Made by a program: the position numbers and the translations under genes. The notes beneath the pieces were generated by a model. That model was not told the origin of the DNA. It saw nothing but the letters and a program-made list of their open reading frames with translations, and ran no database searches. A DNA stretch of 64,000 nucleotides from Synchiropus splendidus (taxonomy: Eukaryota > Chordata > Actinopteri > Syngnathiformes > Callionymidae). Of the stretch, positions 20,866-45,466 are shown piece after piece; the stretch's first letter is position 1, and each line of letters starts with the position of its first letter. The stretch spans positions 27,699,501 to 27,763,500 of the forward strand of contig NC_071339.1 of NCBI RefSeq assembly GCF_027744825.2, given 5' to 3'.

Positions 20866-23800
20866 GAATCAGAATCAGAATCAGAATCAGAATCAGAATG
20901 AGATTTATTGCCATGGTCAGTGGGGAGCCCACTGACTAGGAAAGTGCCTTGGAATAAAGTGCAACAAAAAACAAATAAAATAAAATAAAATAAAATAAAT
21001 AGAATAACATAACAACAAGGCTGTTCACAAATTTAACAGTCTGATGGCCGAGGGGAAGAAGCTGTTCCTGTGACGGGAGTTTCTGGTCGGGATGGACCGT
21101 AGCCTCCTGCCAGAGGGAAGAGGAACAAACAGTCCATGTCCAGGGTGAGAAGGGTCGGCTCTGATCCGACCTGCACGTCTCTGGGTCCTAGAGGCATACA
21201 GGTCCTGAAGAGGTGGCAGGCTGCAACCGATCACCTTCTCAGCAGAACGTACGATGCGCTGCAGTCGGCTCTTGTCCCTGGAGGTGGTGCTGTTGTACCA
21301 GACGGTGATAGAGGAGGTGAGGATGGACTGGATGATGGCCGTATAGAACTCCACCAGCAACTTCGTCGGCAGTCGTAGTTTCCGTACCTGCCTCAGAAAG
21401 AACATTCTCTGCTGGGCCTTCCTGATGAGGGACCTGATGGTTGGCTCCCATTTGAGGTCCTCATTGATGGTGGTTCCCAGGAAGTAGAAGGAGTCCACAA
21501 TAGGAATAGGTAAACCAGCCAACATGAGAGGGGACCGAGAAACTGTGACTCTCCTGAAGTCTATGACCATCTCCACTGTCTTCTGGGCATTGAGCTCCAG
21601 GTTGTTGTGGCTGCACCAGGACACTAGCCGCTCCACCTCCCTCCTGTAAGCCGACTCATCTCCATCTTAGATGAGCCCAATGATGGTGGTGTCATCCGCA
21701 AACTTGATCAGCTTCACGGACTCGTGGCTGGAGGTGCAGCAGTTAGTGTACAGAGAGAAGAGCCATGGTGAGAGAACACAGCCCTGAGGAGACCCGATGT
21801 TGAGGGTCCGAGTGTCGGAGACAGTCGTCCCCAGCCTCACACGCTGACTTCGGCTGGTCAGGAAGTCTGTAATCCATCTGCAGAGGGAGTCAGGCACGTC
21901 CAGCTGGCCAAGCTTGTCTTCAAGCAGAGCTGGAAGAATTGTGTTAAAGGCAGAGCTGAAGTCCACAAACAGGATCCTGGCATAGGTTCCTGGGCAGTCC
22001 AGATGCTCCAGAACGAAATGAAGGGCCTGGTTCACTGCATCGTCCGCAGATCTGTTGGCTCTGTAGCCAAACTGCAATGAGTGCAGGTGAGAAGCAGTGA
22101 TAGATTTCAGGTGGGACAGAACCAGGCGCTCAAAGGACTTCATGACCACAGACGTCAGTGCCACCGGTCTGTAGTCATTCAGTCCTGTGATCCTGGCCTT
22201 CTTGGGAACAGGGATGATAGTGGTGGACTTAAAGCAGGCAGGTACATGACAGGACACCAAGGAAGCATTGAAGATGTCCGTGAACACTGGAGCCAGCTCA
22301 GCAGCACAATGCCTCAGGATGGCAGGGGAAACTCTGTCCGGACCCGCCGCCTTCTGAAGGTTCAGCCTCCTGAACTGAGTGCGCACGTCCTGCTCCATGA
22401 TGTCAAGAGAAAGAGGAAGAGGGGGGAGGTGAGGGGGTGGCTCATCAAAAGTGTCTGTGATCGACTTTGCTGTCTCAGTGACATCGTTCATCTTAGTTGT
22501 GTCACTAAGAGACAGCATAGTCCTTTGTTGTAAAGTGGAACATGGGGCTGGAGAGACCGCAGAGGTGTTGGTGCAAAATGGCTGCTCAAAGCGACAATAG
22601 AAGTTGTTCAAGTCCTGTGCAAGAGCGAGGTTGTTCAGAGTGTGGGGGGCACGTGGCTTGTAGTTAGTGGGCACCTTGAGCCCTCTCCACACCACAGCCG
22701 AGTCATTGGCTGAGAACTGCTGCGTTAGTTTGTCAGAGTATGCGGCCTTAGCTTTCTTCAGCTCCCTCTGAAACCGATACTTCATCTCTTTGTAGCAGTT
22801 CCTGCCCCCACTCTTGCGAGCTGCCACCTTCTCCTGTCTGATCTGGTTGAGTTTAGTTGTGAACCAAGGTTTGTCATTTGCATAACTCACCTTGGTGCGG
22901 GTTGGAACTATGCACTCTTCACAGTAGCTGATCCATGAAGTCACAGTGTCTGTATACTCATCCAGATTGTTGGTGGCAGCCCTGAACACTTCCCAGTCTG
23001 TGGTCTCCATGCAAGACTGCAGCTCCTCTTTAGCTTCACTTGTCCAGATCTTCATGCTCCTCACAACAGGCTTTGCCAGCTTCAGCTTCTGCTTGTATGT
23101 AGGAACAAGATGAACCATCAAGTGTTCAGAGAGACCCAGTGCAGCTCGAGGGAGGGCGGTATAAGAGTTGCGGAGCGATGAGTAACAGTGATCCAGCACG
23201 CTCTGCTCTCTGGTGGAACATTTTACAACCTGCCTGTACCTGGGAAGCTCCTCACTCAGAGTCGCCTTGTTGAAGTCACCAAGCACAATCACAGGAGAGT
23301 CCGGGAAAGTTCGCTCCACATGCAGAAGCTGATCCGCGAGCGCACTCTGAGCCTCACGTACATTCGCGCTGGGCGGAATATATATGGGAGCCAGAATGAA
23401 TGAAGCGAACTCACGTGGGGAGTAAAACGGCTTACAGTTCACGATCAGACATTCCAGAGAGGGAGAGCAGTGCTGAAAGATCACCGTCACGTCCGTACAC
23501 CAGCTCCTGAACCCGGTCCGCGCGGTGAAGCTGGAAACCCTCCAGATGAAGCGCAGTGTCCGGGATGAGATCGCTCAACCACGTCTCCGTGAAACACAAA
23601 ACACAAGAGGAGGAGAAGTCTCTGTTCCGTCTCAACATCAGCGCCAGTTCATCCATCTTATTGCTGAGCGACCGGACGTTGGAGAGGATTATCCCGGGAA
23701 GCGGAGTGCGCGATCCTCTTCGACGAATGCGAACGAGTGCACCGGCACGTTTCCCTCTCCTCCTCAGTTTCTTCCGCCCAGCCAAAAGATGAACTAACTC

Positions 23801-27059: not shown

Positions 27060-27700
27060 GTTTGTCATAGGACATGGTGGACATGATTTGGGCCAAGTTT
27101 GGGCTCCCACTGGCGGACCTCTTTGCCAACAGTGTTTGTTGCCGGAGGGCCTCCTTCACACCTTCCCTCCACCTCGCCTCCTCCTTCAGTTGATGAGGAG
27201 GATTCAGAAGGTGAGAGTGATTCTATTGGCGGCAGATAACCCCAGCTCGATCTGGTACCCAGAGATGTCGCAGATGTGAGCCTGCAGCAGGTAGTAGAAA
27301 TTATGAGGGGTCCACACCCGTTTAATGCTGAACGGGTGTGGACTGCTGTCTGTTGGGTAAACATCCACTGCTAGTCCAGTTAAAGCAGGGAGACAAGACA
27401 AAGACCCACCTCGCATCTGCCCCTATTGGGATCTTCAATTGGTATTAAGTCTGACTCTGAAGCTCTCTTGGAGCCACTTGATCAGACTCCTTTGGAGCTG
27501 GTGGCTTACAAAACAGCTCTTCTCCTGGCTCTGGCCTCCATCAGGAGGGTTTGGAGAACTATGTGCCTTCTCGATTAGTCCTGACTGTATTTCATGTATT
27601 CCTGTGAGGGCACTGAGAGCTTATCTAAATGCAGTTAAGGCCTTCAGGAAAACAGAGAAGCTGTGGGTGGCACTGGCAGGTGGTAAAATGGGGCAACATC
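27060..27700 (+). pseudogene. DIRS recombinase fragment, left flank of Polinton B
   Basis: The plus-strand translation, with stops, follows the recombinase core: a DQTPLELVAYKTALLLALAS-type segment near 27480-27540 and the CTGTGGGTGGCACTGGCAGGTGG block near 27661. It ends at AACATC (27695-27700), the left target duplication of Polinton B, and continues after the element at 45467. It is the DIRS copy into which B inserted. Confidence 0.83.
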
Positions 27701-27925
27701 AGAGAGAAGAAGGATACACCAAAATGTCAAAACTGTTTGATTTATGGCCCTGGAGATAATAAAATGCCTCCCCTTCCGGAGGTAATAAAACCACCCCCTC
27801 CCCCTTTTTATATAAAAAAGAAATTAAAATAATAACCCCTCCCCTTTTTTATATAAAAAGAAATTAAAATAATACCCCTCCCCCTTTTTTATATAAAAAG
27901 AAATTAAAATAATAACCCTTCCCTC
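27701..27925. repeat. Polinton B left terminal inverted repeat
   Basis: Begins AGAGAGAAGAAGGATACACCAAAATGTC, passes a TGGCCCTGGAG block and two GGAGGTAATAAAA-like units. Then come about three units of CCCCTCCCCCTTTTTATATAAAAAG followed by AAATTAAAATAATA. The inner edge is near CCCTCGGAGG. Confidence 0.9.
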
Positions 27926-28865
27926 GGAGGTCAAGGTCAACCTGTGTGATGCATGGGTGGGAGGCCGCTACATCCTCGCAGCCGCAACAAACGGTTAGGT
28001 CTGGTAGGAGGTCAGGTAGGGTCTGCTCGAGGGGAGGGGTTTGAGTGGCTCTGGAGGATTACCTTAAGAATGTGGGGGGGAAAAAAAAAAGAAAAAATAA
28101 GATATTGAAAATAAAACTTTAAAGTTTCAGCATTAGTCAATGTTCAAGCTGTTTCTGCATTGTCGACTAAATAATCTAAACGTGATAGTAGCTTCAATAT
28201 TAATTCTGGTTTAAACGTTTTAGAAGTTATTTAACATCTTAAACAGTTTTTCATTCTTGAAATATTTCTTAAAGATAAAACAGTAGAAAGAAAACACTTT
28301 TTTTTTTTTAGTCTTCACTAATAGTTCAAATGACACAGCTACACAACTCATGCATCATTTTTTCAAAATGTGTTTAAAACAGATAATTTCTACTTGTAAA
28401 ATACTTTTTAGTTTTTCAGAAAATAAGGTTGAGTGAACAAGGATAAAACAAAAGAAAGAAATACCTTTAGTTTTCAGAAAATAAGGTTGAGTGAACAAGG
28501 ATAAAACAAAAGAAAGAAATACCTTTAGTTTTCAGCATTAGTTCAAATGACACAGCTATCCAATTCGCATGAGTTTCTGTTGAATTAGTCTATTTAATTT
28601 TATACCCTGTGTGAGTTTGAAACAATGCATTTTTACTTACTCAGGAAATACTTTGAAAAAATGAGGTCAACAGAGGGGGGACAACAGTCATTAGGTCTGA
28701 CTCTTTCTCAGACACTGAAACAGAGTCCGTGGTAACCGGTTAATTTGCTGAGGAGATGTGAGTTCTTTCCCGACCGGTTGAATCTTCAAAAGAGACAATC
28801 TGAAGACAGAGAGGTCTGTCTGAAGACAAACCTCATTCGTCTATCTGAAGGCAAACCTCGCTGTT
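27926..28865. other. Polinton B left arm, non-coding
   Basis: AT-rich sequence without a supportable gene. Contains a perfect or near-perfect ~62-bp tandem duplication at about 28412-28536 (GAAAATAAGGTTGAGTGAAC in each unit). It may carry promoter or replication signals, which I cannot identify. Confidence 0.5.
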
Positions 28866-28878
28866 CAGACTGAGTGAG

Positions 28879-28941
28879 CACACACACACACACACACGCA
28901 CGCACGCACGCACGCACGCAGGCAGGCAGGCAGGCAGGCAG

Positions 28942-28988
<47 letters not shown>
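28879..28988. repeat. (CA)n / (GCAC)n / (GGCA)n compound microsatellite
   Basis: Runs of CA, then CGCA and GGCA tetramers, then CA again. Any open frame through it is low-complexity. Confidence 0.95.
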
Positions 28989-28991
<3 letters not shown>

Positions 28992-29009
28992 CACACGGCT
29001 GTAGACCCC

Positions 29010-29700
29010 TCCTTTTCAAATTGCATCATTTGACAGCGGAAAAGTTTACTCCTCTGAGCTATCTAGCAAATGCTGAGCTCTTCCAACATTGTTTAATCCA
29101 AAATCAACACAGGTATCGTCTAGCCCCTACCCGCACGAATGGTGTATTTAGATGACACCGATCAGACCACATTTTACAACGGTTCAGGTGTAACCTTTGC
29201 TGTTGACCAGTCCTTACACAACTTCATACGACACCTTTTAAAATTGCATCATTTGACAGCGGAAAAGTTTACTCCTCTGAGCTATCTAGCAAACGCTGAG
29301 CTCTTCCAACATTGTTTAATCCAAAATCAACACAGGTATCGTCTAGCCCCTACCCGCACGAATGGAGTATTTAGATGACACCGATCAGACCACATTTTAC
29401 AACGGTTCAGGTGTAACCTTTGCTGTTGACCAGGCCTTACACAACTTCATACGACACCTTTTAAAATTGCATCATTTAACAACGGAAAAGTTTACACCTC
29501 TGAGCTATCTAGCAAACGCTGAGCTCTTCCAACATTGTTTTATCCAAAATCAACAAGGTATCACCTAGACCCTTCCCACGCTAAGGAGTATTTAGGTGAC
29601 CATGATCCAGACCATGCTTTACATCAGTTCAGGGGTAACCTTTGCTGCTGACCAGACCATCCAGAACTCCATCCAACTCCTTTTCAAACGGACACCAATT
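29010..29700 (+). repeat. 223-bp tandem repeats upstream of and into the spliced gene
   Basis: Near-identical units start at equivalent points near 29139 and 29362 (223 bp apart), with a partial unit before and a diverged unit after (29590-29700). Each unit contains ATG followed by a similar reading frame (YLDDTDQTTFYNGSGVTFAV). The last, diverged unit provides exon 1 of the spliced gene with the shared GVTFAADQ segment. Because 223 is not a multiple of three, the units cannot form one continuous tandem protein. Confidence 0.85.
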
Positions 29701-30363
29701 GCGCTATGGACGCCTCCTCCTCTGCACTCCGTAGGTGAATATATCTATATGTATACAGTATATCTGTGTATCTACATATACAAGTATTATAAGAATTATA
29801 TAAAACGTTATGTCATGTTTATCACATCTCTTTTCATTCACAGACGTCGTCACCCATCTGTGTGACGTTCATTTAACACAGAGTGATACAGGTAAAAACA
29901 TTTAATTATTTTATAATTTGATGTTAATATCTCAATTATGTACTACAACAGCCTTTCTTCTATATTTCAGACATTATTGGCTCCTCGAATAACTTCCCTG
30001 AGAGGTTGATAGACGTTGAGGAGCTCGAGCAGTTAATGCGTCCAAGTTTTGAATACGACGGCGTCCACACGGATCCGACGGCGGTGAATCCGAGAGTGAG
30101 GATTCGAGAGAGCAGCGCTGAGGGGATTTACCCTCCCGCAGCTCCGAACACGCCGTCTATTATAATAATCGACAGCGAGGACGAGTTCACCACTCCTTGT
30201 CCGGGACCGAGTACTGGAAATCAACCGTCGGGAAGAAATCAACGCTCTCTGAGTCGTAAGCGTCGGTATAATTCATCACAGAAGGCAGGACCATTGCGAA
30301 CCATCGGTGAGAAGGAGACACCGATTCTAATCATTATTACGTTAACTAGGTAAAGAATAATGG

Positions 30364-30395
<32 letters not shown>

Positions 30396-30944
30396 ATGAA
30401 AAGGCCACCAGGAACCAGGAAATCAGACGCGGCTGGGAACTCGTCCGGACACCGCGGAGTCGGGTCATTCATTGGACGGGACGCTTCAACTGTTCGACGG
30501 TGCGAGCAAAACATCCAGTTCAGTCAAAATAAAATAAAAAAAAAAAGAAAAAAAAAAAAAAAAGTATTTTAACCACATTGTGTCGATGTGCTTTATATTT
30601 AACTCTCCTATGTTTTTTTTGTTTTATTCAACGTCTGTGCGTATGAAAACAGACGATCAGTCAGAGGTCGGAGGAGTAGTGTGTTCACTCGGCGATCCGT
30701 TCACTCACCAGACACCACAACTGATAGGAGGTGAGAAAAAACATTTTTAGAGTGACAGTTTACGTTCACAAATGTATTTATTTATTTTTTCATGTGAAAA
30801 AACAGATACAAAGACAACGAGTACATCGCGCCCTCTACCTGTCACTTCATCGCCTTTCCCAACGTTTGGTAAGATGTGAATCTCAATTTTTTTTCAACAC
30901 ACATCTCCACCATTCAGTATCAGTTGAATGGTTGTATGTTTGCT

Positions 30945-31024
<80 letters not shown>

Positions 31025-31641
31025 CTCTAATGCGGTTTGTCTATGTTCTAGCTATGTGCTTTAGACGGTGTCATTTTACTATTGAAGGTGTTTGAGTAAC
31101 TGTTGCTAAGCGTCATTGTGATTTTACTACTATGCTTTAACGACGGTGGCCACTAGAGGTCGTGATTACTATTTTATACTATGCTTTAACGACGGCGGCC
31201 ACTAGAGGTCGTGATTACTATTTTATACTATGCTTTAACGACGACGGCCACTAGAGGTCGTGATTACTATTTTACACTATGCTTTAACGACGGCGGCCAC
31301 GAGAGGTCGTGATTACTATTTTATACTATGCTTTAACGACGGCGGCCACTAGAGGTCGTGATTACTATTTTACACTATGCTTTAACGACGGCGGCCACTA
31401 GAGGTCGTGATTACTATTTTATACTATGCTTTAACGACGGCGGCCACTAGAGGTCGTGATTACTATTTTATACTATGCTTTAACGACAGCGGTCACTAGA
31501 GGTCGTGATTTTACCAATTGTAATGTGCTTTAATGACAGTATACACTAGTGATTTACTATTTGTTTTTTATGCTTTAAATGTTGATCCTGAGTAGATCCC
31601 TACATTTATTTATTATTGTATTTTATTATTTATTTAATTAC

Positions 31642-31683
<42 letters not shown>

Positions 31684-31690
31684 TTTTTTT

Positions 31691-31742
<52 letters not shown>

Positions 31743-32664
31743 GCTCTTCACTATTTGCTTTTGTTGTGATGATGGTTTTCCTATGAGTATTGATAAGGAT
31801 GCTACACATTTTGTTTTATTATTGTCATCGCTAGAAAACAACCCGGCTTTACACAGTTATATGATTACGTAATTGTGTTTTTCTGTAGGTCGTATTTTTT
31901 CATATTTTATTCAGCTTATTTTCATACTACTCTGCTTATATTCATATGGTAATAACTGCTATCTGGCGTCTTGCTTCGAGATTGTATTTACATTTTGTAT
32001 TGTTGCTGATATTCTGTTCCAGCTCTCCCTCCTGGGTCTTGGCCTTTGTGGGAGACATCGACACCGGTTTCTACGGTTCCACTGGGTCTACTATCTGGAT
32101 CGTTCCCTACCGTGGACTCGCCGTCAGCATCCGGCCACCCCACACCTCCACCACCACCACCACCGTCAACATCACCAACACCAACAGCGGCCTCAGACAC
32201 CCTCCGGACAGCGCCTCGGACACAGCCGGCGACTTACGACACATCACCCCTCAACCATCCCCGGACTCTACTTCCAGACCCCGAGAGCTCTGTCGCATCG
32301 CCCCAAAACCGACCCCAGACTCCACCATCACAGCCATCACAGACCCAATTGGCATTCTATGCTACAACAACTGTAAAACAACAGCTTGAATGCCGAGTGC
32401 GTACGCTTGAATGTCGTCTAGCACTTCAAGCACGTCAAGCACGTAGATATCGACGGTTGACGAGAAATCTACGCGAAGGTAAGATTAAGAACTTTTTTTT
32501 TTCAATGAGTAATCAGCTGTGATGCATATGTCTTATATATTATTATTATCATCGTTACAGAAAACGTCAGGAAGGAGATCACAAATAAAGCGCTACTGTC
32601 TGAAATTGTGAGACTCCTAAAACTACAAGGACCTGGTGGCAACAGACGTCGTGGACTGATCTGA
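29602..32664 (+). CDS. Seven-exon spliced gene of Polinton B, unknown function (~405 aa)
   Basis: Model: exons 29602-29734, 29844-29891, 29971-30306, 30653-30730, 30806-30868, 32023-32478 and 32561-32664. Every intron is GT-AG and phase 1, and all five internal exons are multiples of three (48, 336, 78, 63, 456). The joined frame is open to the TGA at 32662. Every exon but the last ends in G before the donor. Visible features: a hydrophobic-acidic motif in exon 3 (SIIIIDSEDEF) resembling a SUMO-interaction motif, followed by a basic patch (SLSRKRRY); a Pro/Thr/Ser-rich exon 6; and a Leu/Arg-rich C-terminus (exons 6-7) likely to form a coiled coil. Repeats, including TG microsatellites and a 49-bp minisatellite, lie in introns. 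It sits upstream of PolB on the same strand, where an early regulatory gene would fit. I recognise no family. Exon 7 is conserved in copy C (61970-62074). The exon 1 start is the least certain part. Confidence 0.75.
30948..31020. repeat. (TG)n microsatellite in intron 5
   Basis: Long pure TG tract inside the fifth intron of the spliced gene. A shorter TG tract at 30365-30392 lies in intron 3. Confidence 0.95.
31131..31525. repeat. 49-bp minisatellite in intron 5
   Basis: Eight units of 49 bp, each containing TATGCTTTAACGACGGCGGCC and ACTAGAGGTCGTGATTACTA. Unit starts are at 31131, 31180, 31229, 31278, 31327, 31376, 31425 and 31474. Units differ by single substitutions, and degraded partial units flank the block. 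It lies within intron 5 (30869-32022). Confidence 0.95.
31635..31740. repeat. (TTA)n and poly-T tract in intron 5
   Basis: ATT trinucleotide repeat followed by more than 50 T residues. Unlikely to be coding. Confidence 0.95.
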
Positions 32665-32803
32665 ATGAAGTTCAGCCACAGTAAGGTCCCTTCAGAGTCT
32701 GATTATTTAAAGGCACCGCGGGTGATTGTGTTTTGAGGTTGCTGTTTGGTTTATTAAATTCTTTTAATTATTATTTCATTGTTATCGTTATTATTATTAA
32801 ATT

Positions 32804-35800
32804 ATGGCCGATCATGATGGTTTTCCTTCTGGTTCTGACCCTGAATCCACCCACAACCAGGACACTACACCACACCTCATTGACCAGAGTGCTTCACCGA
32901 CACGGATGTTTCTGTCTGGCTTGTTTGACGGCATGTCTGAGGAGGAGGATGTAGAGCCGGTCTATGATCCGAGTATAAATGAAAACATGGAGTCCATTTT
33001 TTTCGCTGAGAGAGAGGATAATCGTATTTTAAATATGGTTCCTGCATCATCATGCGAGGGTAGGGTTGATACCTCTTTAGACAACGACAATTGGTTAGAA
33101 AGGTTTGTTGATAACCTACAGACGACCGATTCAGGGACACCTGCTCTTGACCCTCTGATAGACCCGTCTGACTCTAGCAGCAGCGATGACAGTGTTGATG
33201 ATGACGGTGATTTTGTACAGGAAGGATGCTGTGTTGGAGGTGCCGGTATTGAATCAGAAGTCATAGAGGCTTTTAACACCGATAGGATGAGAAGGGTGCT
33301 AACACGTCCTGCTGTACCAGACACTCCTGATCTAGCTACTTTCTACAGAGGTTTGATGCAACAGGTCAGAGAGTTGGCTGATGAAGCGCAGAGACTGGCA
33401 GATCGAGAGGATGTGGTTCAGCTTGAAGTGGTTGGTGAAGGTGTTCAAGAACACGTTAATGTTGTGGTTGAAGGCGACGGGGGAAATATCTACCCCGCTT
33501 TTGAGGACCTCCTTAGCAACACCGTGCAATCCGACAGAGTCATCGCTATGGGTATGAGAATTGAATTAACGGTCCAAATTGTACATAACCCTCGAGGAGG
33601 CACTAAACGCAAACTCGAGAAGACACTGGATGCCGAAATTATCGGTAAAAAAAGACGACATCTCTATGTAGCTGATGGTGATGGAACTGATCAGCTTTGC
33701 TTCGCAATCAGCCTTTCTTGTCTCCTTAATCCTCACCGTACGTATCAAGATTGTGTTGATTTGGGGAGGGAATTACAAAGCAAAGCTGGTTTAGATTCTC
33801 AAACACCTATCACATTCACAGATATACCCCTGTTTGAACGGATAGTGAGGCGTAAAATTGTTGTGTTTCATAAAACGACACCAAACCAACCATTAGCACA
33901 TTATGTGCACATATGTATAGCTGATGGTTTGGATCCCTTATACTTGTTTCTACTTCAGGGACACTATTACGGGGTGAAGAATCCAAAGGGTTTTTTAGGA
34001 ACACGCTACTTTTGCGTCAGCTGTCATAAGGGGTATGAAGATAAATCAAAACACATCTGCAAAGGTCATTGTAGCGTTTGTCACAATCCTGTTTGCCCTA
34101 CACAGGTTCCAGACCCTGTAACTTGCGGCGACTGTCGTCGGGTTTGTAGAACGCCATCATGCATCGTGAGACACAAAGAGATTGGCGCTAACGGGTCAAG
34201 TCTCTGTCAGAGATACAAAAAATGTGAAAAATGCGGAAGGTGTCGGTATATGCCTTTAAAAACGGGTAAACCCAACCATTGTTGCGTTGTGCTTAAATGT
34301 AACATCTGCAATGTAAAATTATCATCGACAAACGAGGTCCATCAGTGCTACATTCAGCCGGTTGCCAGGAAGACGGAGCATCCCGATCTGGTTTTTTACG
34401 ATTTTGAAACGTTTACAGACGACCAGGGTAGACATGTCCCTTTTTTAGTGTGTGCAAAGACGCAGAGAGGTGAAGAACAGGTGTTTTATGGTCTCGACTG
34501 TGTTAGAGCGTTTCTTTTATATTTCAGAAAGAACCGGTTTAGAGGCTGTGTTTTTGTTGCGCATAATGCCAGGGGTTTTGACAGTGTCATTGTCTTGAGA
34601 GGTATGCTTGATGAAGGGTTAATACCAAAGAGGTTAATCATGACCGGTAGTAAGATACTTTGTCTTGAGGATCCTCACTACAAGCTAAAATTCATCGACT
34701 CTCTCTCATTTCTAACCATGCGACTCAGCTCCATGCCTAAAGCTCTAGGTTTCACCGATCAGTGCAAGGGTTTTTTTCCACACAAGTTTAGCTCGAAAGA
34801 CCGTCTGCATTACATTGGGGCCTATCCTCCTCCGTCAGACTACGGCGTTGAGGGCATGTCAGACCCTGAACAGAGAGATTTTTACAGCTGGTACGAATCT
34901 GTGTGTGAGAATTCTTTCAATTTCAGGAGTGAAGCTATTCACTATTGTAAAAACGATGTTGACATTCTGGCCAGAGGGTGTGTGATATTTAGAGAGGAGT
35001 TTTTTAAAGAAACGGGTGTTGATGCACTCTCGTCCGTAACAATCGCCTCTGCGTGTATGGCTGTTTTCAGGACCAACTTTTTAAAACCAGACACATTAGC
35101 CATACCATGTCCCAACAATTATGTAACAAGAGGTAACAAGAGGTTCTCAGACGCTTCCATCCAGTGGTTGCAATGGGAATCACACAGACAGGGCATTTCC
35201 ATACAACATGCCTTGAACCGTGGGGAGATGGTGTTTGGTCAGTATTTTGTTGACGGTTATGCTGAAGTTGACGGTGTTAAGCAGGTCTGGGAGTTTTATG
35301 GATGTTTCTTCCACGGTTGTCCCTCATGTGTTGACCCTCATGCAGTCTGTCCGTTAAGAGGTAGACCATATGGTGAATTCTACTCTGCTACGATGGAGAG
35401 AGAGCAGGCGTTAAAGTCTGATCATGGGGTGCGTCTTATTACCATCTGGGAACACGAATGGCGTTCACTTCGACAATCGTGTGATGATCTCAGAGACTTT
35501 CTCTTAGATTTTGACACCCCTGAGCCTCTCAACCCTCGTAATGCCCTCTACGGTGGTAGAACCAGCGCTTTAAAGTTGCGTTACACGGCTAAGCCTGGTG
35601 AAAAAGTTTATTACGCTGATGTCACGTCTCTGTATCCTTATGTCAACAGCACGTGTTCCTATCCCCTAGGTCACCCCCGAATAATTCACAAGGACTTTGG
35701 GGATCCCAGACAGTACTTTGGTCTTATCAAGGCGGTTGTCTATCCTCCTAGGGGTTTATATGTACCCGTTTTACCCTACAGAGGACCAGGGGGTAAATTA

Positions 35801-36868
35801 CACTTCACGTTATGCCGTATCTGTTCAAGTCATAATGTTCAAGACAATGGCTGTACGCATAATGATGATGAGCGTGCTTTGACAGGGGTCTGGGTCACGG
35901 TTGAGTTCAACAAGGCTCTGGACAAGGGATACAGGGTGGCCAAGATTATTGAAGTATGGCATTTTGATAGCTCTAGCGATTGTATTTTCACAGGTTACAT
36001 CCGTACATTCCTGAAGGGCAAACAGGAGGCTTCTGGTTACCCTGCTGAGGCCGTTGATCAGGAAAGCCGCGACAAATACATTAAGGATTATCAAACCCAT
36101 CAGGGGATTTTGCTTTGTGCTGATAAGATTTGTCACAACCCAGCAAAGAGACAGGTGGCTAAAGCTTGTCTTAATAGCCTGTGGGGCAAGTTCTGCCAGA
36201 GGGAGAACATGTCTCACGTTTCTGTAGTGTCAGACCCCAACGACTTTTTCAGTTTCTTGTTTTCAGGGAAATACGAGGTCAGCTACTTTAACGTGCTGGA
36301 TGAGAAAAAAGTTGTGATCCAGTGGCGTTACAAGGGTCTCTACCCTCCTGGTAAAAGCAGCAATGTTTTTATCGGAGCTTTTACCACTGCTTATGCACGT
36401 CTGAAGTTGTACAGTTACATGGAGAAATTGCAGGAGAATGTTCTCTATGTTGACACAGACAGCTTGATATATGTGGTGAAAGACGGCGAGACACCTTTAA
36501 AATTAGGTAACTATCTCGGTGATCTGACTGATGAACTCGACGGGGATAGCATCGAGGACTTTGTTTCGGCGGGTCCTAAGACGTATGCTTATAGGACCAA
36601 AGGACAGAAGAAGGTTGTGATGAAAGTTAAAGGTATCACGCAAACAAAAGAGGCTTGTCAGCAGATAAACTTTGACTCTGTCAGAGATCTTGTAGAGCGC
36701 TATTTACAGAATTCACCTGATGGGCTGCTTGAGACCCGTCAACACAGCATTGTGAGGGATAAAAAGAACATCACTTTAAAAAACAGATCAGTTACTAAAA
36801 AACTCCGGGTCGTGTACGATAAAAGGCGTTTGTTTTCAGACGGCACAACCAAACCTTTCGGGTTCTGA
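32804..36868 (+). CDS. PolB: Protein-primed family B DNA polymerase (Polinton PolB)
   Basis: 1354 aa, replicates the element from protein-primed ends. The exonuclease has Exo I FYDFETF (Asp ~533), Exo II HNARGFDS (Asp ~593) and Exo III YCKNDVD (Asp ~718). The polymerase has motif A ADVTSLYP (Asp ~939), motif B NSLWGK (~1124) and motif C YVDTDS (Asp ~1217/1219). The ~530-residue N-terminal extension is acidic, then has a Cys/His-rich region at ~405-515 with several CxxC pairs. Between the exonuclease and palm lies WEFYGCFFHGCPSC (~829-842), a conserved insert with nuclease-like Cys/His spacing whose role I only infer. The start at 32804 is 140 bp downstream of the spliced gene's stop. Fully open, so possibly functional. 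The homologue in copy C (57825-61837) is broken. Confidence 0.97.
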   Translation: MADHDGFPSGSDPESTHNQDTTPHLIDQSASPTRMFLSGLFDGMSEEEDVEPVYDPSINENMESIFFAEREDNRILNMVPASSCEGRVDTSLDNDNWLERFVDNLQTTDSGTPALDPLIDPSDSSSSDDSVDDDGDFVQEGCCVGGAGIESEVIEAFNTDRMRRVLTRPAVPDTPDLATFYRGLMQQVRELADEAQRLADREDVVQLEVVGEGVQEHVNVVVEGDGGNIYPAFEDLLSNTVQSDRVIAMGMRIELTVQIVHNPRGGTKRKLEKTLDAEIIGKKRRHLYVADGDGTDQLCFAISLSCLLNPHRTYQDCVDLGRELQSKAGLDSQTPITFTDIPLFERIVRRKIVVFHKTTPNQPLAHYVHICIADGLDPLYLFLLQGHYYGVKNPKGFLGTRYFCVSCHKGYEDKSKHICKGHCSVCHNPVCPTQVPDPVTCGDCRRVCRTPSCIVRHKEIGANGSSLCQRYKKCEKCGRCRYMPLKTGKPNHCCVVLKCNICNVKLSSTNEVHQCYIQPVARKTEHPDLVFYDFETFTDDQGRHVPFLVCAKTQRGEEQVFYGLDCVRAFLLYFRKNRFRGCVFVAHNARGFDSVIVLRGMLDEGLIPKRLIMTGSKILCLEDPHYKLKFIDSLSFLTMRLSSMPKALGFTDQCKGFFPHKFSSKDRLHYIGAYPPPSDYGVEGMSDPEQRDFYSWYESVCENSFNFRSEAIHYCKNDVDILARGCVIFREEFFKETGVDALSSVTIASACMAVFRTNFLKPDTLAIPCPNNYVTRGNKRFSDASIQWLQWESHRQGISIQHALNRGEMVFGQYFVDGYAEVDGVKQVWEFYGCFFHGCPSCVDPHAVCPLRGRPYGEFYSATMEREQALKSDHGVRLITIWEHEWRSLRQSCDDLRDFLLDFDTPEPLNPRNALYGGRTSALKLRYTAKPGEKVYYADVTSLYPYVNSTCSYPLGHPRIIHKDFGDPRQYFGLIKAVVYPPRGLYVPVLPYRGPGGKLHFTLCRICSSHNVQDNGCTHNDDERALTGVWVTVEFNKALDKGYRVAKIIEVWHFDSSSDCIFTGYIRTFLKGKQEASGYPAEAVDQESRDKYIKDYQTHQGILLCADKICHNPAKRQVAKACLNSLWGKFCQRENMSHVSVVSDPNDFFSFLFSGKYEVSYFNVLDEKKVVIQWRYKGLYPPGKSSNVFIGAFTTAYARLKLYSYMEKLQENVLYVDTDSLIYVVKDGETPLKLGNYLGDLTDELDGDSIEDFVSAGPKTYAYRTKGQKKVVMKVKGITQTKEACQQINFDSVRDLVERYLQNSPDGLLETRQHSIVRDKKNITLKNRSVTKKLRVVYDKRRLFSDGTTKPFGF

Positions 36869-36892
36869 GTTTTGAGTGGATGAGGGGTCATT

Positions 36893-37561
36893 ATGGAAGA
36901 AATTCATTTCGATCCTCGTTTGAAAACACCATTTTCATGTCTAGTGGTGGGGCCATCAGGGTCAGGAAAGACCCATTTTGTAAAATGTATACTTGAAAAT
37001 TGTGAACATGTTATGGATGATGCCAATGTAAATATTGTATGGATTTATACTTCTTTTCAACCGATGTACAGTGAATTGCAAAAGATGAATAAAAATATCA
37101 AATTCATTGAAGGTTTACCTGAATCTTTTGAAAATGAAGATGTATTTCCTTCTGATAGAAAACATTTGATTATTCTTGACGATGTTATTTTTGAAGCTTC
37201 TGCAAACCCTGAGGTTGTTCGCATTTTTACACAGTACAGACATCATAAAAATATGAGTGTTATAATGCTGACGCAAAACTTATTTCATCGTGGTAAATAT
37301 AGTCGTACTATTAGTCTGAATAGCAATTACTTTGTACTGTTTAAGAATCCTCGCGATAAAATGCAGATAAAAGTTCTTGCTCAACAGGTTTACCTGTCTC
37401 AAAGAGCTTTCTTTCTTGAAAGCTTTGAAGATGCTACAGCTGACGCACACGGGTACTTAATTGTTGATCTAACACCCTCATGTCCAGAACGCTACAGACT
37501 AAGGACCGGGATACTTCCTCATCAACGTCGCACGGTGTACATACCAAAAACGTCTGCTTAA
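36893..37561 (+). CDS. ATP: FtsK/HerA-type (A32-like) genome-packaging ATPase
   Basis: 222 aa. Walker A is GPSGSGKTH (Lys26), preceded by the short beta-strand SCLVV. Walker B is HLIILDDVIFE (~89-99). A downstream SVIMLTQNLFH strand-loop carries the Gln of the sensor region. Size and motifs match the compact packaging ATPases of Polintons, adintoviruses and related small viruses, which drive DNA into preformed capsids. Starts 24 bp after the PolB stop. Open and apparently intact. Only scrambled remnants remain in copy C (57255-57796). Confidence 0.95.
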   Translation: MEEIHFDPRLKTPFSCLVVGPSGSGKTHFVKCILENCEHVMDDANVNIVWIYTSFQPMYSELQKMNKNIKFIEGLPESFENEDVFPSDRKHLIILDDVIFEASANPEVVRIFTQYRHHKNMSVIMLTQNLFHRGKYSRTISLNSNYFVLFKNPRDKMQIKVLAQQVYLSQRAFFLESFEDATADAHGYLIVDLTPSCPERYRLRTGILPHQRRTVYIPKTSA

Positions 37562-37564
37562 GTT

Positions 37565-37907
37565 ATGTCAGCGCGTATAAAAAGAAACGCGGGTTTACTT
37601 AAGGAACTATACCATGCTCCGTCAAAGAAACGTAAAGACATTTTGATGCGTAGTTCTCGGGACTTTATTCAAGCTCTCGGTGAGATCGCCCTGAATGTTT
37701 TGAAGGGGAATGTACCATTGTCGCAGGCTCAGTTCAAAAAACTGAAAAAAACAGAAGAAAAACATCAGACTCTTGGCTAATAAAAAGGCGTGCGTGAAGC
37801 GTAAACGAAGGATTCTTAAAAAGCAATCGGGAGGATTCATTTTGCCGTTGCTAGCGGCTGCCGTTCCAATCATTGGAAATCTAATAGGAGGACTTGTAAA
37901 GAAGTAA
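37565..37907 (+). pseudogene. Small basic protein with hydrophobic C-terminus (virion type), frameshifted in B
   Basis: Starts three bases after the ATPase stop. The first frame (37565-37780, 71 codons) is basic and helical (RKDILMRSSRDFIQALGEIA). From the A run at 37745-37751 the conserved sequence continues in the next frame to 37907: a basic stretch, then GGFILPLLAAAVPIIGNLIGG and a Lys-Lys end. A basic segment followed by Gly-Gly-Phe and a hydrophobic helix is typical of small proteins in Polintons and related viruses, likened to adenovirus pX/pVI-type membrane-active virion peptides. Copy B has seven A residues where copy C has six, so B carries a one-base expansion. Confidence 0.72.
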
Positions 37908-37913
37908 AACACC

Positions 37914-38684
37914 ATGAAGACTGTCCAGAAAATGTATCTCGTCTCTCCTCAGCAAATTAACCGGTTATCACGTCCAACCCCCGACATCCGTGAAACTGCC
38001 GAAGATGAATTAAATGACAAGATGAGGTCCATTCTAAATGATTCTCAGTTAAACTCGTATGAGAAGATTAAAAAGTAAGATGCTCTATTGCAAAGATATT
38101 TAACCTTTACAAAACAGGATCAGAGAGACCAAAGGAGAGTAACTCTGACTTTACAACGAGACGGAGTCAGCGATCAACCCCACGACTCTAACAGTCGTGT
38201 CGAAAGTGTTCTAAAAACACCATCTGTAACAGACGACTTGGGTAAGGATATTCTAAATAGCCTTCCGTCAAAAGCTCGAAGAAATGCTGAATACATTATC
38301 CAGAGGATATCCAAAAACGGTGATGGTTGGAATATGAATGGCGAATTTATGTATGAAGGAAATGCTGTAAAAGGCTCTCATGTGATTGATATATTCAAGT
38401 AGCTTTCCCTACCGTATAAGAAAACGAGTTCTTCATTACCTGAGGGCTGGTCCGAGTTTCTCGTCACATTATTAAAGCTAAACATCCCTCTCACACTGCT
38501 GTCCAATCCTGAAGCGAGGGCTCAATATCAGAGACTTAAATCGAATTCTATCTCGCGAAAGAAAAGTATAGCTGAGAGCTGGTCTCCCGACCCAAAGGAT
38601 CCTAAAGCGACACCTCGACGACGCTTGACACGTGTAGTGACCAAAGGGAAGAAATTGTCTCTAACACCTCGATGGTTTTCCTGA
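37914..38684 (+). pseudogene. Conserved Polinton protein of 256 codons, two nonsense codons in B
   Basis: Begins MKTVQKMYLVSPQQIN six bases after the preceding gene and ends at TGA 38682-38684. Two in-frame stops interrupt it: TAA at 38076-38078 and TAG at 38400-38402. At both positions copy C has a Tyr codon (TAC), so both are substitutions in B. The protein is hydrophilic, with a helical N-terminus (DKMRSILND, YEKIKK), a RYLTF segment and a central KARRNAEYIIQRISKNGDGW motif found widely in Polinton-like elements. Its role is unknown; gene position suggests a virion or assembly factor. Confidence 0.8.
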
Positions 38685-38715
38685 ATAATTGTCTTGTACA
38701 CGGTTATTGTCTTTT

Positions 38716-38740
38716 CATCAATAAAATGTTTTATTGAATT
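38716..38740. terminator. Bidirectional poly(A) signal between convergent gene blocks
   Basis: CATCAATAAAATGTTTTATTGAATTATT holds AATAAA on the plus strand (38720-38725) and, overlapping, AATAAA on the minus strand (TTTATT at 38730-38735). The plus-strand block ends at 38684 and the minus-strand protease ends at 38796, so one short near-palindrome can serve both transcripts. Confidence 0.7.
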
Positions 38741-38795
38741 ATTATGTGATTACAGATTTTTCTTTTAAACACACGCACAAACAAAATAAGATTAG

Positions 38796-39338
38796 TCACA
38801 CGTTACAATAGTCTTTAAAATACAGAAGAGAACAGTTTTGTTGTTTCCACGGACAGTGTGCACATCTTTTTAGACATTTTTGATGTCCTTTCACAAAGTT
38901 GTATACCATGAGGTCGTTTTTTAGGGTATCGTCGCTGTATAGACTTAATACTTCTTCCATAGACAGCCCTCTAGCACGATGACAGAGGTAGAAGACGCAA
39001 TGATGACCGCATACAAACGATAGAGCATGCTGTAGTTGGCCATTGTTGTACTTGATGTTGCCTGAATGTTTCTTGAGAAACTTTAAAATATTTTCAGGGT
39101 AATGTGAAAAGTACGGACCCATTCCGAATGAGTCAAAGAAAGTTGTTCTACCGTCTTCTTCGAGAGTTAAAGCCAACCAGTGCTCTCCTGGTTTATGTGC
39201 CGGGTGTGAGTTGACGACGAAATATGCAGGCGATCTGAGGGGTTGAGTGTATTGAGGCAACTTATCCGACGGCCATACACCGTAAAATGTGTCGCCAAAG
39301 AGACCTCTCAGCAGCCTCTGTAACTGGAGACTATCCAT
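38796..39338 (-). CDS. PRO: Adenain-like cysteine protease
   Basis: 180 aa. Catalytic residues can be placed by motif: His53 in GEHWLALTL, Asp69 in TFFDSFGMGP, the oxyanion Gln in the GQLQ segment (~103) and Cys114 in CGHHCVFYLCHRARG. This is the Ulp1/adenain fold used by adenoviruses and Polintons to cleave structural proteins during virion maturation. A Cys-rich end (CLKRCAHCPW) follows. Starts 12 bp after the major capsid stop on the same strand. Intact in B; interrupted by an LTR in copy C. Confidence 0.95.
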   Translation of the reverse strand: MDSLQLQRLLRGLFGDTFYGVWPSDKLPQYTQPLRSPAYFVVNSHPAHKPGEHWLALTLEEDGRTTFFDSFGMGPYFSHYPENILKFLKKHSGNIKYNNGQLQHALSFVCGHHCVFYLCHRARGLSMEEVLSLYSDDTLKNDLMVYNFVKGHQKCLKRCAHCPWKQQNCSLLYFKDYCNV

Positions 39339-39350
39339 AACTTTTTTTTT

Positions 39351-40658
39351 TTAATAATAGTCCACCAACACTTGTCTTTTCGCATCAATCTCCAGAATGG
39401 AATCGTAACAAGCGTACACAATCAGTGTTACGGTGTTTGGTAAGGGTACTCTGAATCTCATCTCCAGTCTTAAATTCCCATTTGAGACAGGGGAGAGAGC
39501 GTCGTTGTCGTCGGCTGGATTGAGATTAAACGCAAACAACGAATAACCTCCGTTAAAACCTTCGCGGTCAATGCTTAGCGGTAGATCCTTCAAATGTCTT
39601 CCTGTAGCTAGAATCATGTTATAAAACTCTCTGACCGCCATACCGTTATTAAACTGAGGTTGAAAAGCTTTAGCGGGGATCTGTCGACCGTCCTGACAGA
39701 GGGCGAGATATTCGGTGTTGTAATGGTGAAAATTGAACGGGGAGAGATCTCTCCTACCGGTAAACGCCTCATGATGCACCATCCCTAAAACCACGTATTT
39801 AGGTATTGAACCCAGAAATAAATTCTCCTGGGTACATATTCTTGAGTTTTCTGGAATGGAGTATGTTTTTACGTTGACTCGTGAGAGGGGGTAGAGAGCA
39901 TTTCCTTTTAACAAACCCGCTGCATGACCTATTCTCACAGCTGGCGAAACAGTGACTTTCTTCACAAACAGAGAGGCGCCGAGGATTTTCAGACGAAAGG
40001 TGGAGTCGCGGGGCCCGGTCAGACAGAAGGCATCGTTCGCCCTGGTGAGTTTAATTCTTAAATCGACCGAGTTTAATAACAGTCTCTCGCAGAAAAATAT
40101 GTCGCTGTGAAGAGGACCGAGAAGGTGTACTTCTCTGGATCTGCTCGTGAACTCTGCCCGTTTATTAAGGCCAGCGTTGGGTCCGTTTACAGTGACGATC
40201 GAGTCGACCGACCCGGGTGTGTCTTGGTAAAAAAGACCGGCGCTAAACTGTGTTTTAAGAGTGTCGCCGGAAAAGTTGAGAAGTGTTTCAATCATAGCTC
40301 TGTACGGGTGAGTGGAACTGGACTGCGAAATCATCCGATCCCCCAGAACCACATCGCACTGATCAAAGATTGTGTTTAGAGGATAATTGATGAGGCCGAC
40401 TGCTGCGTCGTTAGCCAGCGGGGTGCCATCGGCATTAGTAATTCTTGCACGCACGTGTAGAAGGGTGTCTTTTAGGTCTAGATACTTTTCGCCGTCTCCC
40501 GGTATAAAAAACTCAATCGGTCCTCCTTCGCTGATAGCGGCTACTGGAGCAATTTCTGTGTAAATTTTGTCCTCGATGGAAAGCTGCGTCATCGGCGGCG
40601 TGAATAAATCCAGTTCTGCCAATGTGCATTCAGTAGATTTCTGGTGTAGGCGCGCCAT
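39351..40658 (-). CDS. MCP: Major capsid protein, double jelly-roll type
   Basis: 435 aa, intact. Located between core protein and protease, as in Polintons and adintoviruses. N-terminal EIAPVAAISEGGPIEFFIPG and DTLLHVRARITNADG, the middle HLLGPLHSDIFFCERLLLN and the late block FNFHHYNTEYLALCQDGRQ, ending in VYACYDSILEIDAKRQVLVD, form an all-beta pattern consistent with two jelly rolls. It would form the pseudo-hexameric capsid shell. Function is assigned from gene context and resemblance to the Polinton capsid family, not from structure prediction. A TATATA motif lies immediately upstream (40666-40671). Confidence 0.85.
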   Translation of the reverse strand: MARLHQKSTECTLAELDLFTPPMTQLSIEDKIYTEIAPVAAISEGGPIEFFIPGDGEKYLDLKDTLLHVRARITNADGTPLANDAAVGLINYPLNTIFDQCDVVLGDRMISQSSSTHPYRAMIETLLNFSGDTLKTQFSAGLFYQDTPGSVDSIVTVNGPNAGLNKRAEFTSRSREVHLLGPLHSDIFFCERLLLNSVDLRIKLTRANDAFCLTGPRDSTFRLKILGASLFVKKVTVSPAVRIGHAAGLLKGNALYPLSRVNVKTYSIPENSRICTQENLFLGSIPKYVVLGMVHHEAFTGRRDLSPFNFHHYNTEYLALCQDGRQIPAKAFQPQFNNGMAVREFYNMILATGRHLKDLPLSIDREGFNGGYSLFAFNLNPADDNDALSPVSNGNLRLEMRFRVPLPNTVTLIVYACYDSILEIDAKRQVLVDYY

Positions 40659-40664
40659 GTTACT

Positions 40665-40673
40665 GTATATAAG
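40665..40673 (-). promoter_or_regulatory. TATA-like box before major capsid gene
   Basis: Minus-strand CTTATATAC lies 7-15 bp upstream of the capsid ATG at 40658. The element is conserved at the same place in copies A and C. The short distance means the transcript would start inside the ORF if this were a standard TATA box, so it may instead be an A/T-rich late-promoter element. Confidence 0.4.
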
Positions 40674-40678
40674 GTTTT

Positions 40679-41116
40679 TTAAAATATATCGGAGCTCCCT
40701 CTGGACTTCCTCTTGGCCCGTTTGCTTCTGTCAACTGGCTTCTTTCTTTTTTTGTTTGTACGTTTATTTGAGCTCTGTGTTACACGTCGTCCTGGTGGTC
40801 GTCTCTTTGTCCTTCGTGATAAGACGGCTATACCACCTGACTCTTCCTGTCTCTGTTGATCGCTCATTCCTCTCACGGTACGGGTGAACATATCCGAGGC
40901 TGTGTTACCCACTGCTGATTTGAGATGAGGCTTTGCTATGGCAATACCTCTTTTCAACAGAGGTGATACAAACCGAAACATTTTTGAGAAGAGGGAACCG
41001 ATGCCTCGTCCGTACATAACCGGGGCACCGTAGAACCCGGGTAGATCTCCGCCCACCTGTTTTTCATAATATTGTACAAATCTGTGCGGGTCGTCTCTTA
41101 AGCCTGCATGTACCAT
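40679..41116 (-). CDS. Basic core-type virion protein
   Basis: 145 aa. N-terminal half: GRGIGSLFSKMFRFVSPLLK followed by RGIAIAKPHLKSAVGN, an amphipathic helix-prone region. C-terminal third: many Lys/Arg (RRTKRRPPGRR, NKRTNKKRKK, SKRAKRKSRG) as in DNA-condensing viral core proteins. Lies between minor and major capsid genes. All three copies preserve it, and A and B are intact. I infer a minor virion protein combining membrane-active and DNA-binding segments; homology to adenovirus pVI/pX is suggestive only. Confidence 0.72.
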   Translation of the reverse strand: MVHAGLRDDPHRFVQYYEKQVGGDLPGFYGAPVMYGRGIGSLFSKMFRFVSPLLKRGIAIAKPHLKSAVGNTASDMFTRTVRGMSDQQRQEESGGIAVLSRRTKRRPPGRRVTQSSNKRTNKKRKKPVDRSKRAKRKSRGSSDIF

Positions 41117-41203
41117 TGTGTTTGTTTATGACGTGGTCTGCAAAGGAGGGTTATCTCTCTCCGGCGTTGTGATGATGAATGGATTTCCAGACGACGATAC
41201 GAG

Positions 41204-41215
41204 GGTTATATAATA
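41204..41215 (-). promoter_or_regulatory. TATA box upstream of core protein gene
   Basis: Minus-strand ATTATATAAC about 90 bp before the ATG at 41116, immediately after the minor capsid stop. The same element and spacing occur in copy C (52239-52250). Confidence 0.5.
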
Positions 41216-41220
41216 TCCTA

Positions 41221-42162: not shown

Positions 42163-42194
42163 GATGATATGACGCCTGGTGTAAAGAAGGATCG

Positions 42195-42205
42195 TCTTAT
42201 ATATT
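42195..42205 (-). promoter_or_regulatory. TATA box overlapping the integrase stop codon
   Basis: Minus-strand AATATATAAGAC contains the integrase TAA (42197-42199). It lies ~35 bp upstream of the minor capsid ATG at 42162. The arrangement is conserved in copies A (1624-1632) and C (51333-51343), so it is a likely promoter for the minor capsid gene. Confidence 0.55.
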
Positions 42206-43276
42206 TTTTATATCTGAAGCTTTTACCCTACTGTTGAATTTTTCAGGCCAGTTCTTCCACTGGACAAAGACCTGTCTCTCTCCTTTAACGCGTCGTTCCT
42301 TGAGAATCTTTTCAACGTGAAATACTTTATCCTTAACGAGTTGTACTTTTTGTAATTCTTGATCATAAAATGACCCCTGGATGGGTTCGCCGTCGAAATC
42401 TTTCAATTTATACACAGGCGGGTTGCGGTGAATACATTCAGTTATCGTAAATATCTCGTCTGTAAAACTCTGCTCATACTTTTTGTCAAATACACCTCGT
42501 AGTTTTGATATCCTAACATGATCGCCCTCCTTAAATTTCAGCTTCTGTCGACCTCTCGACGGTCTAATGTAAAGATTGTCAAACACTTGCAGAGTATTTT
42601 CTTTAGTTACTTCCATCGGTGTCATTTTTATACTGCTGTGATAGCTGTGATTATAACTCTTTACTAGATCCTGTAAAACCTCGATGTAACGTAGAGTGTT
42701 TTTAGCTGTAAAATATCTCCACATCCGATTTTTAAGAGTGCGGTTAAATCTCTCAACCACAGAGGCCTTAACGTCACTCGCTGTTGAAAAATGATTAATA
42801 CCCTTCCTTTCCATCAAAGCCCTGAAACTCTTGTTAAAAAATTCTTTCCCGTCATCCGTCTGTAGCTTTGCAGGCGTCCCGCTCTCCTCCAGCACTGATT
42901 CAAACGCCTTCATTGTCTCAATCGCAGTCTTTCTTTTTAAAACGCGTACATAGGCCTTCTTTGAAAATACATCTATAACGGTCAACAAGTAATTTTGATC
43001 GTCGTTATATCTAGCCAAAGCCTGCATGTCGCATAGGTCGGCCTGGAATTGTTGAAGTGGCCTGTGAACAAATACTCTGTTTCTCGGAAAGTTTACTCTG
43101 ACCGGTTTATGCAGGGTGTAAGCATCCTGTTTTGATAAAAAATCTTTAATAGATTTAGAACTGACTGGTTTTCCAGTCTCAGCCTGCACCCCTCGACGAA
43201 GGCGATCCGCACCTCCGTAGCTCCCGGGGTGAAGAGGATTGTAATAAACTCTTTTAATGATGTGTTTCACCGACAT
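42197..43276 (-). CDS. INT: Polinton integrase (DDE) with C-terminal chromodomain
   Basis: 359 aa, open. Retrovirus-like core: first Asp in FQADLCDMQAL (80 or 83), second Asp in LQTDDGKEFF (141), Glu in SVVERFNRTLKNRM (175), giving about 33 residues between the last two. A basic linker (PSRGRQKLKFKEGDHVRISK) leads to an SH3-like region, then a chromodomain (FHVEKILKER...QVFVQWKNWPEKF). The enzyme inserts the linear element and makes the 6-bp duplication; the chromodomain probably guides targeting to heterochromatin. B has Arg in FNSRVKASD where A and C have Trp, at a conserved aromatic position, which may weaken the domain. Confidence 0.95.
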   Translation of the reverse strand: MSVKHIIKRVYYNPLHPGSYGGADRLRRGVQAETGKPVSSKSIKDFLSKQDAYTLHKPVRVNFPRNRVFVHRPLQQFQADLCDMQALARYNDDQNYLLTVIDVFSKKAYVRVLKRKTAIETMKAFESVLEESGTPAKLQTDDGKEFFNKSFRALMERKGINHFSTASDVKASVVERFNRTLKNRMWRYFTAKNTLRYIEVLQDLVKSYNHSYHSSIKMTPMEVTKENTLQVFDNLYIRPSRGRQKLKFKEGDHVRISKLRGVFDKKYEQSFTDEIFTITECIHRNPPVYKLKDFDGEPIQGSFYDQELQKVQLVKDKVFHVEKILKERRVKGERQVFVQWKNWPEKFNSRVKASDIKNI

Positions 43277-43395
43277 GTTAAATGAGAAATGAATGAGCCG
43301 AGATCCGAATATGCTTCTTAATGTTTTTTATTAAACAGGTTATGTCAGGATTCGATCGTAAAGTTATACAAAGACAGTAAAAGCAAAAAAAAATA

Positions 43396-44217: not shown

Positions 44218-44282
44218 CGTTGTCCTGGATGCGTTTGTTCCGCCGGGTACGTCTGCAGGGTGTCGCTCTGGAAAACACCCTC

Positions 44283-44289: not shown

Positions 44290-44325
44290 GCAACCGTCAG
44301 CGAGTAGGCGGTCCAAAGGGCGGGA

Positions 44326-45084: not shown

Positions 45085-45466
45085 ATATATACACACAAGT
45101 CACACAGCTGTTATAAAACAAGGGATGATAGGGTTAATTATTACCCTTCCTGTCATAAAACAAGGGGGAGGGTTATAATTTTAATTCCCTGTTGATATAA
45201 AAAAGGGTGGGGTTATTATTTTAATTTCTTTTTATATAAAAAGGGTAGGGGTTATTATTTTAATTTCTTTTTATATAAAAAGAGGGAGGGGTTATTATTT
45301 TAATTTCTTTTTATATAAAAACGGGGAGGGGTTATTATTTTAATTTCTTTTTTATATAAAAAGGGGGAGGGGTTGGTTTTATTATCTCTGGAAGGGGAGG
45401 GGTTTTATTACCTCCAGGGCCATAAATCAAACAGTTTTGACATTTTGGTGTATCCTTCTTCTCTCT
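45085..45466. repeat. Polinton B right terminal inverted repeat
   Basis: Reverse complement of the left repeat, with the same outer ~60 bp but about five internal TTATATAAAAAGGG...TTATTATTTTAATTTC units against about three on the left. The inner part has TGTTATAAAACAAGG, also present in copy A. Confidence 0.9.

Follow-up and report, generated by a model that had tools for sequence, protein, structure and literature searches.

An apparently spliced, multi-exon accessory gene upstream of the DNA polymerase gene in Polintons of the fish Synchiropus splendidus

The Polintons (Mavericks) of vertebrates have (AG)3//(CT)3 ends and are flanked by 6-bp target duplications, and the part of the published account available to us reports the genes of intact elements to be free of introns, which is an observation and not a definition (PMC8097293). 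As regards other elements of this kind, group I introns occur inside genes of cryptophyte polinton-like viruses (PMC12220804), no introns were found in virophage-like elements of Cafeteria (PMC8547959), and in a further study a predictor of prokaryotic and virus genes was chosen because endogenous viruses contain no introns (PMC10120064), each statement being taken from the accessible portion of its source. Here we analyze an accessory gene located upstream of PolB in a Polinton of 17,766 bp (27701-45466) within a stretch of 64,000 nucleotides from Synchiropus splendidus (NC_071339.1, positions 27,699,501 to 27,763,500; the whole stretch is referred to below as the window). Judging from its exon borders, this gene is probably spliced. 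No title or abstract that we found reports a vertebrate Polinton gene with several exons and spliceosomal introns, most of the subscription literature being out of reach.

A preliminary description of this DNA had proposed six GT-AG introns, all in phase 1, whose removal leaves one frame open to a TGA about 140 bp before PolB, and exon-by-exon translation bears this out. All exons are on the plus strand: exon 1 (29602-29734), exon 2 (29844-29891), exon 3 (29971-30306), exon 4 (30653-30730), exon 5 (30806-30868), exon 6 (32023-32478) and exon 7 (32561-32664), which is open to its TGA; each of them is open in the frame used, and 139 bases separate the TGA from the PolB ATG at 32804. The five internal exons, of 48, 336, 78, 63 and 456 nt, are all multiples of three in length, as had also been claimed. 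Exon 2 encodes the almost invariant peptide VVTHLCDVHLTQSDT, whereas exon 6 combines a conserved head with a proline-rich middle and the beginning of a C-terminal helix. The chance that exons 2-7 all stay open in one frame, estimated as a product over Markov-resampled sequence, is about 10^-5.2, and that of five lengths all divisible by three is 1/243, neither figure being corrected for the many possible chains; the recurrence of borders, phase and order in diverged copies is the stronger test. Intron 5 also contains a minisatellite of about eight 49-bp units (31121-31510), and the distance between exons 5 and 6 differs from that of the window in 21/21 close copies.

The genome searched for relatives was the source genome itself (583 Mb in 96 contigs), in which DNA comparison detected Polinton copies in two identity ranges, 94-98% and 77-89%, and protein comparison yielded at least 150 scored places of 663 candidates for exon 3, at least 150 of 2126 for exon 6 and at least 131 places of 563 candidates for a 300-aa piece of PolB. 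We analyzed 41 loci, namely, 27 close copies (L009-L035), eight diverged ones (L036-L043) and six more (L044, L045 and L048-L051); L001-L008, which are the window's own locus and seven places already in the set, were not recounted, and L046 and L047, inspected for gene layout only, are outside these counts. Among the close copies, exon 2 was found and open in 27/27, exon 3 was open in 26/27, exon 4 in 25 of the 26 where it was found, exon 6 in 22/26, and exon 7, with its TGA, in 26/26. Exon 5 was open in all 21 loci where it could be mapped; in four of the six others, tblastn finds its residues 7-20. For exons 2-7 of these copies, the acceptor AG is present in all mapped cases and the donor GT in all except exon 2 of L035. 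All six exons were mapped in 21 of the 27 close copies, and 16 of these 21 are in frame and open with every border kept. The length of exon 6 differs in six loci, in four of them by multiples of three, and length differences that are not multiples of three are found in intron 3 (14/26), intron 5 (13/21) and intron 6 (17/25).

The same arrangement recurs at a greater distance. L044 and L045, in which the N-terminal piece of PolB is 85% identical, carry the seven exons in order before PolB, with six GT-AG introns and exons 2-7 open (the end of exon 6 in L045 was placed by its donor). In the eight diverged loci, exon 2 is open in 8/8, exon 4 in 7/8, exon 5 in 6/6 and exon 7 in 6/6, and L043 is the only one with exons 2-7 whole. 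The preliminary description had pointed to frameshifts or a lack of conservation in related Polintons as what would speak against the gene; the borders and frames of exons 2-7 do recur, although part of the older copies carry lesions. An accessory gene of several exons upstream of PolB is thus upheld by its relatives, and we consider the structure of exons 2-7 in the window very probably genuine. Matches to exon 3 at 70% were also seen about 4.4 kb from PolB (a 1368-aa open frame at 94% identity), for example, at C8:3019189/3023631 and C17:2018599/2023042.

Codons of exons 2-7 were compared among the window, L036, L039, L041, L044, L045, L049 and L051, with frame-lesioned exons excluded; 25 of the 28 pairs offered at least 60 codons and seven more than 200. 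In these seven, the ratio of nonsynonymous to synonymous divergence (dN/dS) was 0.34-0.51, with upper bounds of 0.49-0.75. For the window it was 0.47 against L044 (95% interval 0.35-0.64; dN 0.220, dS 0.466), 0.50 against L045 (0.37-0.66), 0.51 against L049 (0.35-0.75) and 0.44 against L039 (0.29-0.72), and between the relatives it was 0.34 for L044-L045 (0.16-0.67), 0.35 for L044-L049 (0.23-0.49) and 0.34 for L045-L049 (0.23-0.51); a previous comparison of the window with L036-L043 had given 0.46-0.71. The first 200 codons of PolB show a dN of 0.071 and a dS of 0.268 between the window and L044. Fourfold sites away from CpG changed at 9/36 positions in the gene and 3/20 in PolB, so CpG decay may inflate the dS of the exons.

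Whether the gene comprises exactly seven exons, as first described, is less certain than the recurrence of exons 2-7, because that description missed a candidate. In a scan of 57 phase-1 candidates inside introns, we found in intron 3 a segment of 96 nt, denoted exon 3b (30404-30499, plus strand), that is preceded by AG, followed by GT, in phase 1 at both ends and open. The 96-nt length and both borders are kept in 26/27 close copies and the open frame in 25/27, and six of ten diverged loci keep all of these features, whereas L039, L041, L044 and L050 do not. The used frame has a pooled dN/dS of 0.77, versus 0.84 and 1.40 for the other two, so the coding role of exon 3b is only that of a candidate, and the predicted exon count is seven or eight. 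A 36-nt candidate in intron 5 scored 8/9 but abuts a TG repeat and was not retained.

The first exon is another matter. Its donor, TAG/GTGAAT (the slash marks the exon end), was found in 39/41 loci, whereas the ATG at 29602 proposed as the start of the gene, in the phase-1 frame, is present in only 12 of 26 close copies. Exon 1 is therefore likely real as an exon, but 29602 is weak as a coding start and is not a conserved one in this subfamily. In 11 of the 13 diverged loci that have the donor, an in-frame ATG lies eight codons before it, and in L044 and L045 exon 1 has stops in the phase-1 frame upstream of a late ATG. Three 223-bp units form a tandem repeat (28993-29688, plus strand), and exon 1 lies in the last of them; the first two hold open reading frames that begin at ATG 29139 and 29362 and could be alternative first exons; where uncut, the frames of such upstream units encode 68-79 aa. 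As a universal start these were rejected, because in some copies the nearer unit has a truncated frame, and no single start fits all copies.

As had been supposed, the product matches no described family in Pfam, the PDB or a set of 5.8 billion proteins. Exons 1, 3, 4, 6 and 7, each searched separately, retrieved no Pfam family up to E 5; the best PDB matches, with E 0.31 (exon 6) and 0.14 (exon 3), we take as chance; in the protein set, 130 candidates shared words with exon 6 and one with exon 3, none at E <=0.01, the length window of that search disfavouring full-length spliced relatives; and in IMG/VR, queries with PolB or exon 6 found no relatives, records from the same genome being possibly excluded. 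A THAP-like zinc module in exons 1-2, suggested by a CxxH in exon 2, was considered but not adopted; Pfam returned nothing for exon 1, exon 2 by itself being too short for such a search. SUMO-interaction motifs comprise a hydrophobic core followed by acidic residues, and a putative motif of this type, IIIIDSEDE, is encoded in exon 3 (30159..30185), with the pattern found in 36/41 loci. The same exon encodes a basic patch, SRKRR (30252..30266), possibly a nuclear localization signal; the pattern SRK[RQ]R is found in 38/41 loci and missing in L032, L036 and L039. In a single-sequence AlphaFold2 model (mean predicted local distance difference test score, pLDDT, of 65), confidence is low outside a helix at residues 106-150 of exon 6 (32340..32474), the last blocks of which have pLDDT 92-98; this C-terminal helix is basic, as is the end of exon 7. 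Taken together, these predictions suggest that the gene likely makes a nuclear, disordered protein in which a SUMO-interaction-like motif and a basic patch are followed by a C-terminal helix.

What the gene might do has to be weighed against several alternatives, the most radical of which is that the exon chain arose by chance in non-coding DNA of the element. The chain was, indeed, chosen by eye, and codon log-odds fail to place the used frame above all others in exon 5 and barely do so in exon 6, but identical borders and phase in diverged copies, the dN/dS values and the openness estimate given above make this reading highly improbable, and we reject it. A more substantial alternative is that an ancestral coding gene is now in decay in this genome, its frames having been kept only because the copies are young. 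Several observations that fit such decay also weigh against the regulator reading set out below: no in-frame ATG is present in exon 1 of 14 of the 26 close copies; lesions are present in most of L036-L043, where exon 3 is open in 3/8 and exon 6 in 1/5, so that these look like partly decayed older copies; L048 and L049 keep the borders but have a GC donor after exon 4 and a frame shift late in exon 3, L048 having a stop in exon 6 as well; and divergence between the window and L044 is greater in exons than in introns (0.255 versus 0.182, introns 1 and 5 excluded). Moreover, seven of the 25 comparisons, all among the shorter pairs, have an upper bound of dN/dS that extends to 1, and the dN of the gene is about three times that of PolB. 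Among the remaining loci, L050 has lesions in exons 3 and 6 and no detectable exons 5 and 7, and L051 has duplicated exons, exon 7 not being in the stretch examined. However, exons 2-7 are open in both L044 and L045, and the dN/dS of the window against these loci is 0.47 and 0.50, with upper bounds of 0.64 and 0.66, so we regard current decay as unlikely. The excess of exon over intron divergence can also be read as fast evolution of the protein and, together with the dN relative to PolB, as modest constraint; judged from these alignments, the accessory protein is fast-evolving and modestly constrained.

If the gene is real and spliced, its product could, alternatively, be a DNA-binding protein or a replication partner of PolB that acts through the basic helix. 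The position immediately before PolB and the basic C-terminal helix and exon 7 end are compatible with this possibility, which we nevertheless consider somewhat unlikely, given that the acidic IIIIDSEDE-type motif recurs among the loci and that neither Pfam nor the PDB indicates similarity to a replication factor. We prefer the interpretation, with a probability of roughly 0.4, that this Polinton accessory gene encodes a disordered, nuclear, SUMO-linked regulator of the element. Its starting point is direct observation of the exon order, the GT-AG borders, the uniform phase, the open state of the frames in the majority of close copies and a dN lower than dS in comparisons with related elements. 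Under this interpretation, the six recurring coding exons and a first exon would be spliced into one accessory transcript; the protein would enter the nucleus through the basic patch, bind SUMO-modified host factors through the acidic motif, pair through the predicted C-terminal helix, and set the expression or silencing of the Polinton. The location before PolB suggests such a regulatory, non-virion role. The strict form of the SUMO-type pattern is missing in L039-L043, with near variants in three of these in the alignment, and the motif functions are putative readings of sequence patterns; both points count against the regulator reading. More tentatively, we propose that the Polintons of this lineage carry a modular spliced regulator, built from seven or eight phase-1 exons any of which could be skipped without loss of frame, which may serve as a switch with the host SUMO system, relatives varying in their first-exon repeats and in a tandem duplication of exons 4-5-6. 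A block of exon 4, exon 5 and the head of exon 6 is tandemly repeated two to three times in L037, L038 and L051.

The host element has several hallmarks of its kind. The terminal inverted repeats (27701..27923 and 45244..45466), both of 223 bp and 94% complementary to each other, begin with AGAGAG and finish with CTCTCT, and the target duplication AACATC lies on either side (27695-27700 and 45467-45472), in agreement with the ends and duplications in the accessible account of vertebrate Mavericks (PMC8097293). Pfam detected the type B DNA polymerase, the packaging ATPase and the chromodomain integrase of Polintons: PolB (1354 aa; 32804..36868, plus strand; PF03175, E 1.7e-43), an A32-type ATPase (36893..37561, plus strand; Pox_A32, 2.4e-08) and the integrase (42197..43276, minus strand; rve, 3.6e-11; Chromo, 3.1e-06), each of which is a single open reading frame without introns. 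A protease match (Peptidase_C5, E 0.0054) is under the Pfam cut-off, and candidate capsid frames of 435, 145 and 313 aa have no Pfam match; the same holds for two accessory frames outside the integrase on the minus strand (43396-44316, 306 aa, and 44326-44829, 167 aa). Pieces of two further Polintons occupy 1-3974 and 48746-62806 of the window, one being a right end with capsid and integrase fragments and a terminal repeat, and the other a broken copy in inverted orientation, whose exon 7 lies at 61977-62069; retroelement remains (RVT_1 frames, an ALKBH8_N domain and an RNase H piece; 21025-23490, minus strand, and 4013-5976, plus strand) lie beside the Polinton. Elsewhere in the genome, exon-3 matches, some with stops, form dense clusters (C2:9.47-9.98 Mb, C2:37.47-37.89 Mb and C10:19.8-20.4 Mb), and L046 and L047 contain the gene in two versions that lie within 5 kb; the portions of these loci examined gave no PolB match above E 0.04. 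In four examples found by eye (C8:920294/971407, C15:16403215/16454475, C2:4214071/4262294 and C2:6760819/6809233), exon-6 matches pair with PolB matches that contain five in-frame stops, about 47-51 kb away on the opposite strand. The window repeats this layout: an exon-6 match lies just to its left (C6:27694743) and an inverted PolB at 57540-62082, and the 17.8-kb Polinton separates them. This genome may have amplified a large unit with dead Polinton ends.

If the gene is spliced, nuclear transcription and use of the host splicing machinery are implied, and the gene would provide a testable handle on the encounter between Polintons and host control. If the modular switch exists, no earlier description of a vertebrate Polinton would include a gene with several exons and spliceosomal introns. 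Gene callers that assume the absence of introns would overlook such genes when applied to these elements. Adenovirus E1A and similar spliced early regulators of small DNA viruses are disordered, motif-bearing products of multi-exon genes located outside the virion genes. The gene described here may resemble them by analogy of working only; its protein has no Pfam similarity, and we claim no membership. Adintoviruses and the motif-defined 'Oncoid' class, compared here by description only, likewise combine PolB with a chromodomain integrase and have accessory proteins known by short linear motifs, but spliced genes are not described in the available part of that account, the main text of which has no match for 'spliced' or 'splice' (PMC11071296). 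Cryptophyte polinton-like viruses share the presence of introns within the genes of a polinton-like element although, as far as the accessible text goes, these are self-splicing RNAs in a short gene, as opposed to six introns of the spliceosomal GT-AG type (PMC12220804). With the Polintons/Mavericks of vertebrates the element shares PolB, the ATPase and the integrase, arranged as two opposed modules, as well as accessory regions that lie beyond the core modules, and the terminal repeats, end sequences and target duplication; compared with the intronless genes reported in the part of that account available to us (PMC8097293), the accessory gene of the window is set apart by its recurring multi-exon structure.
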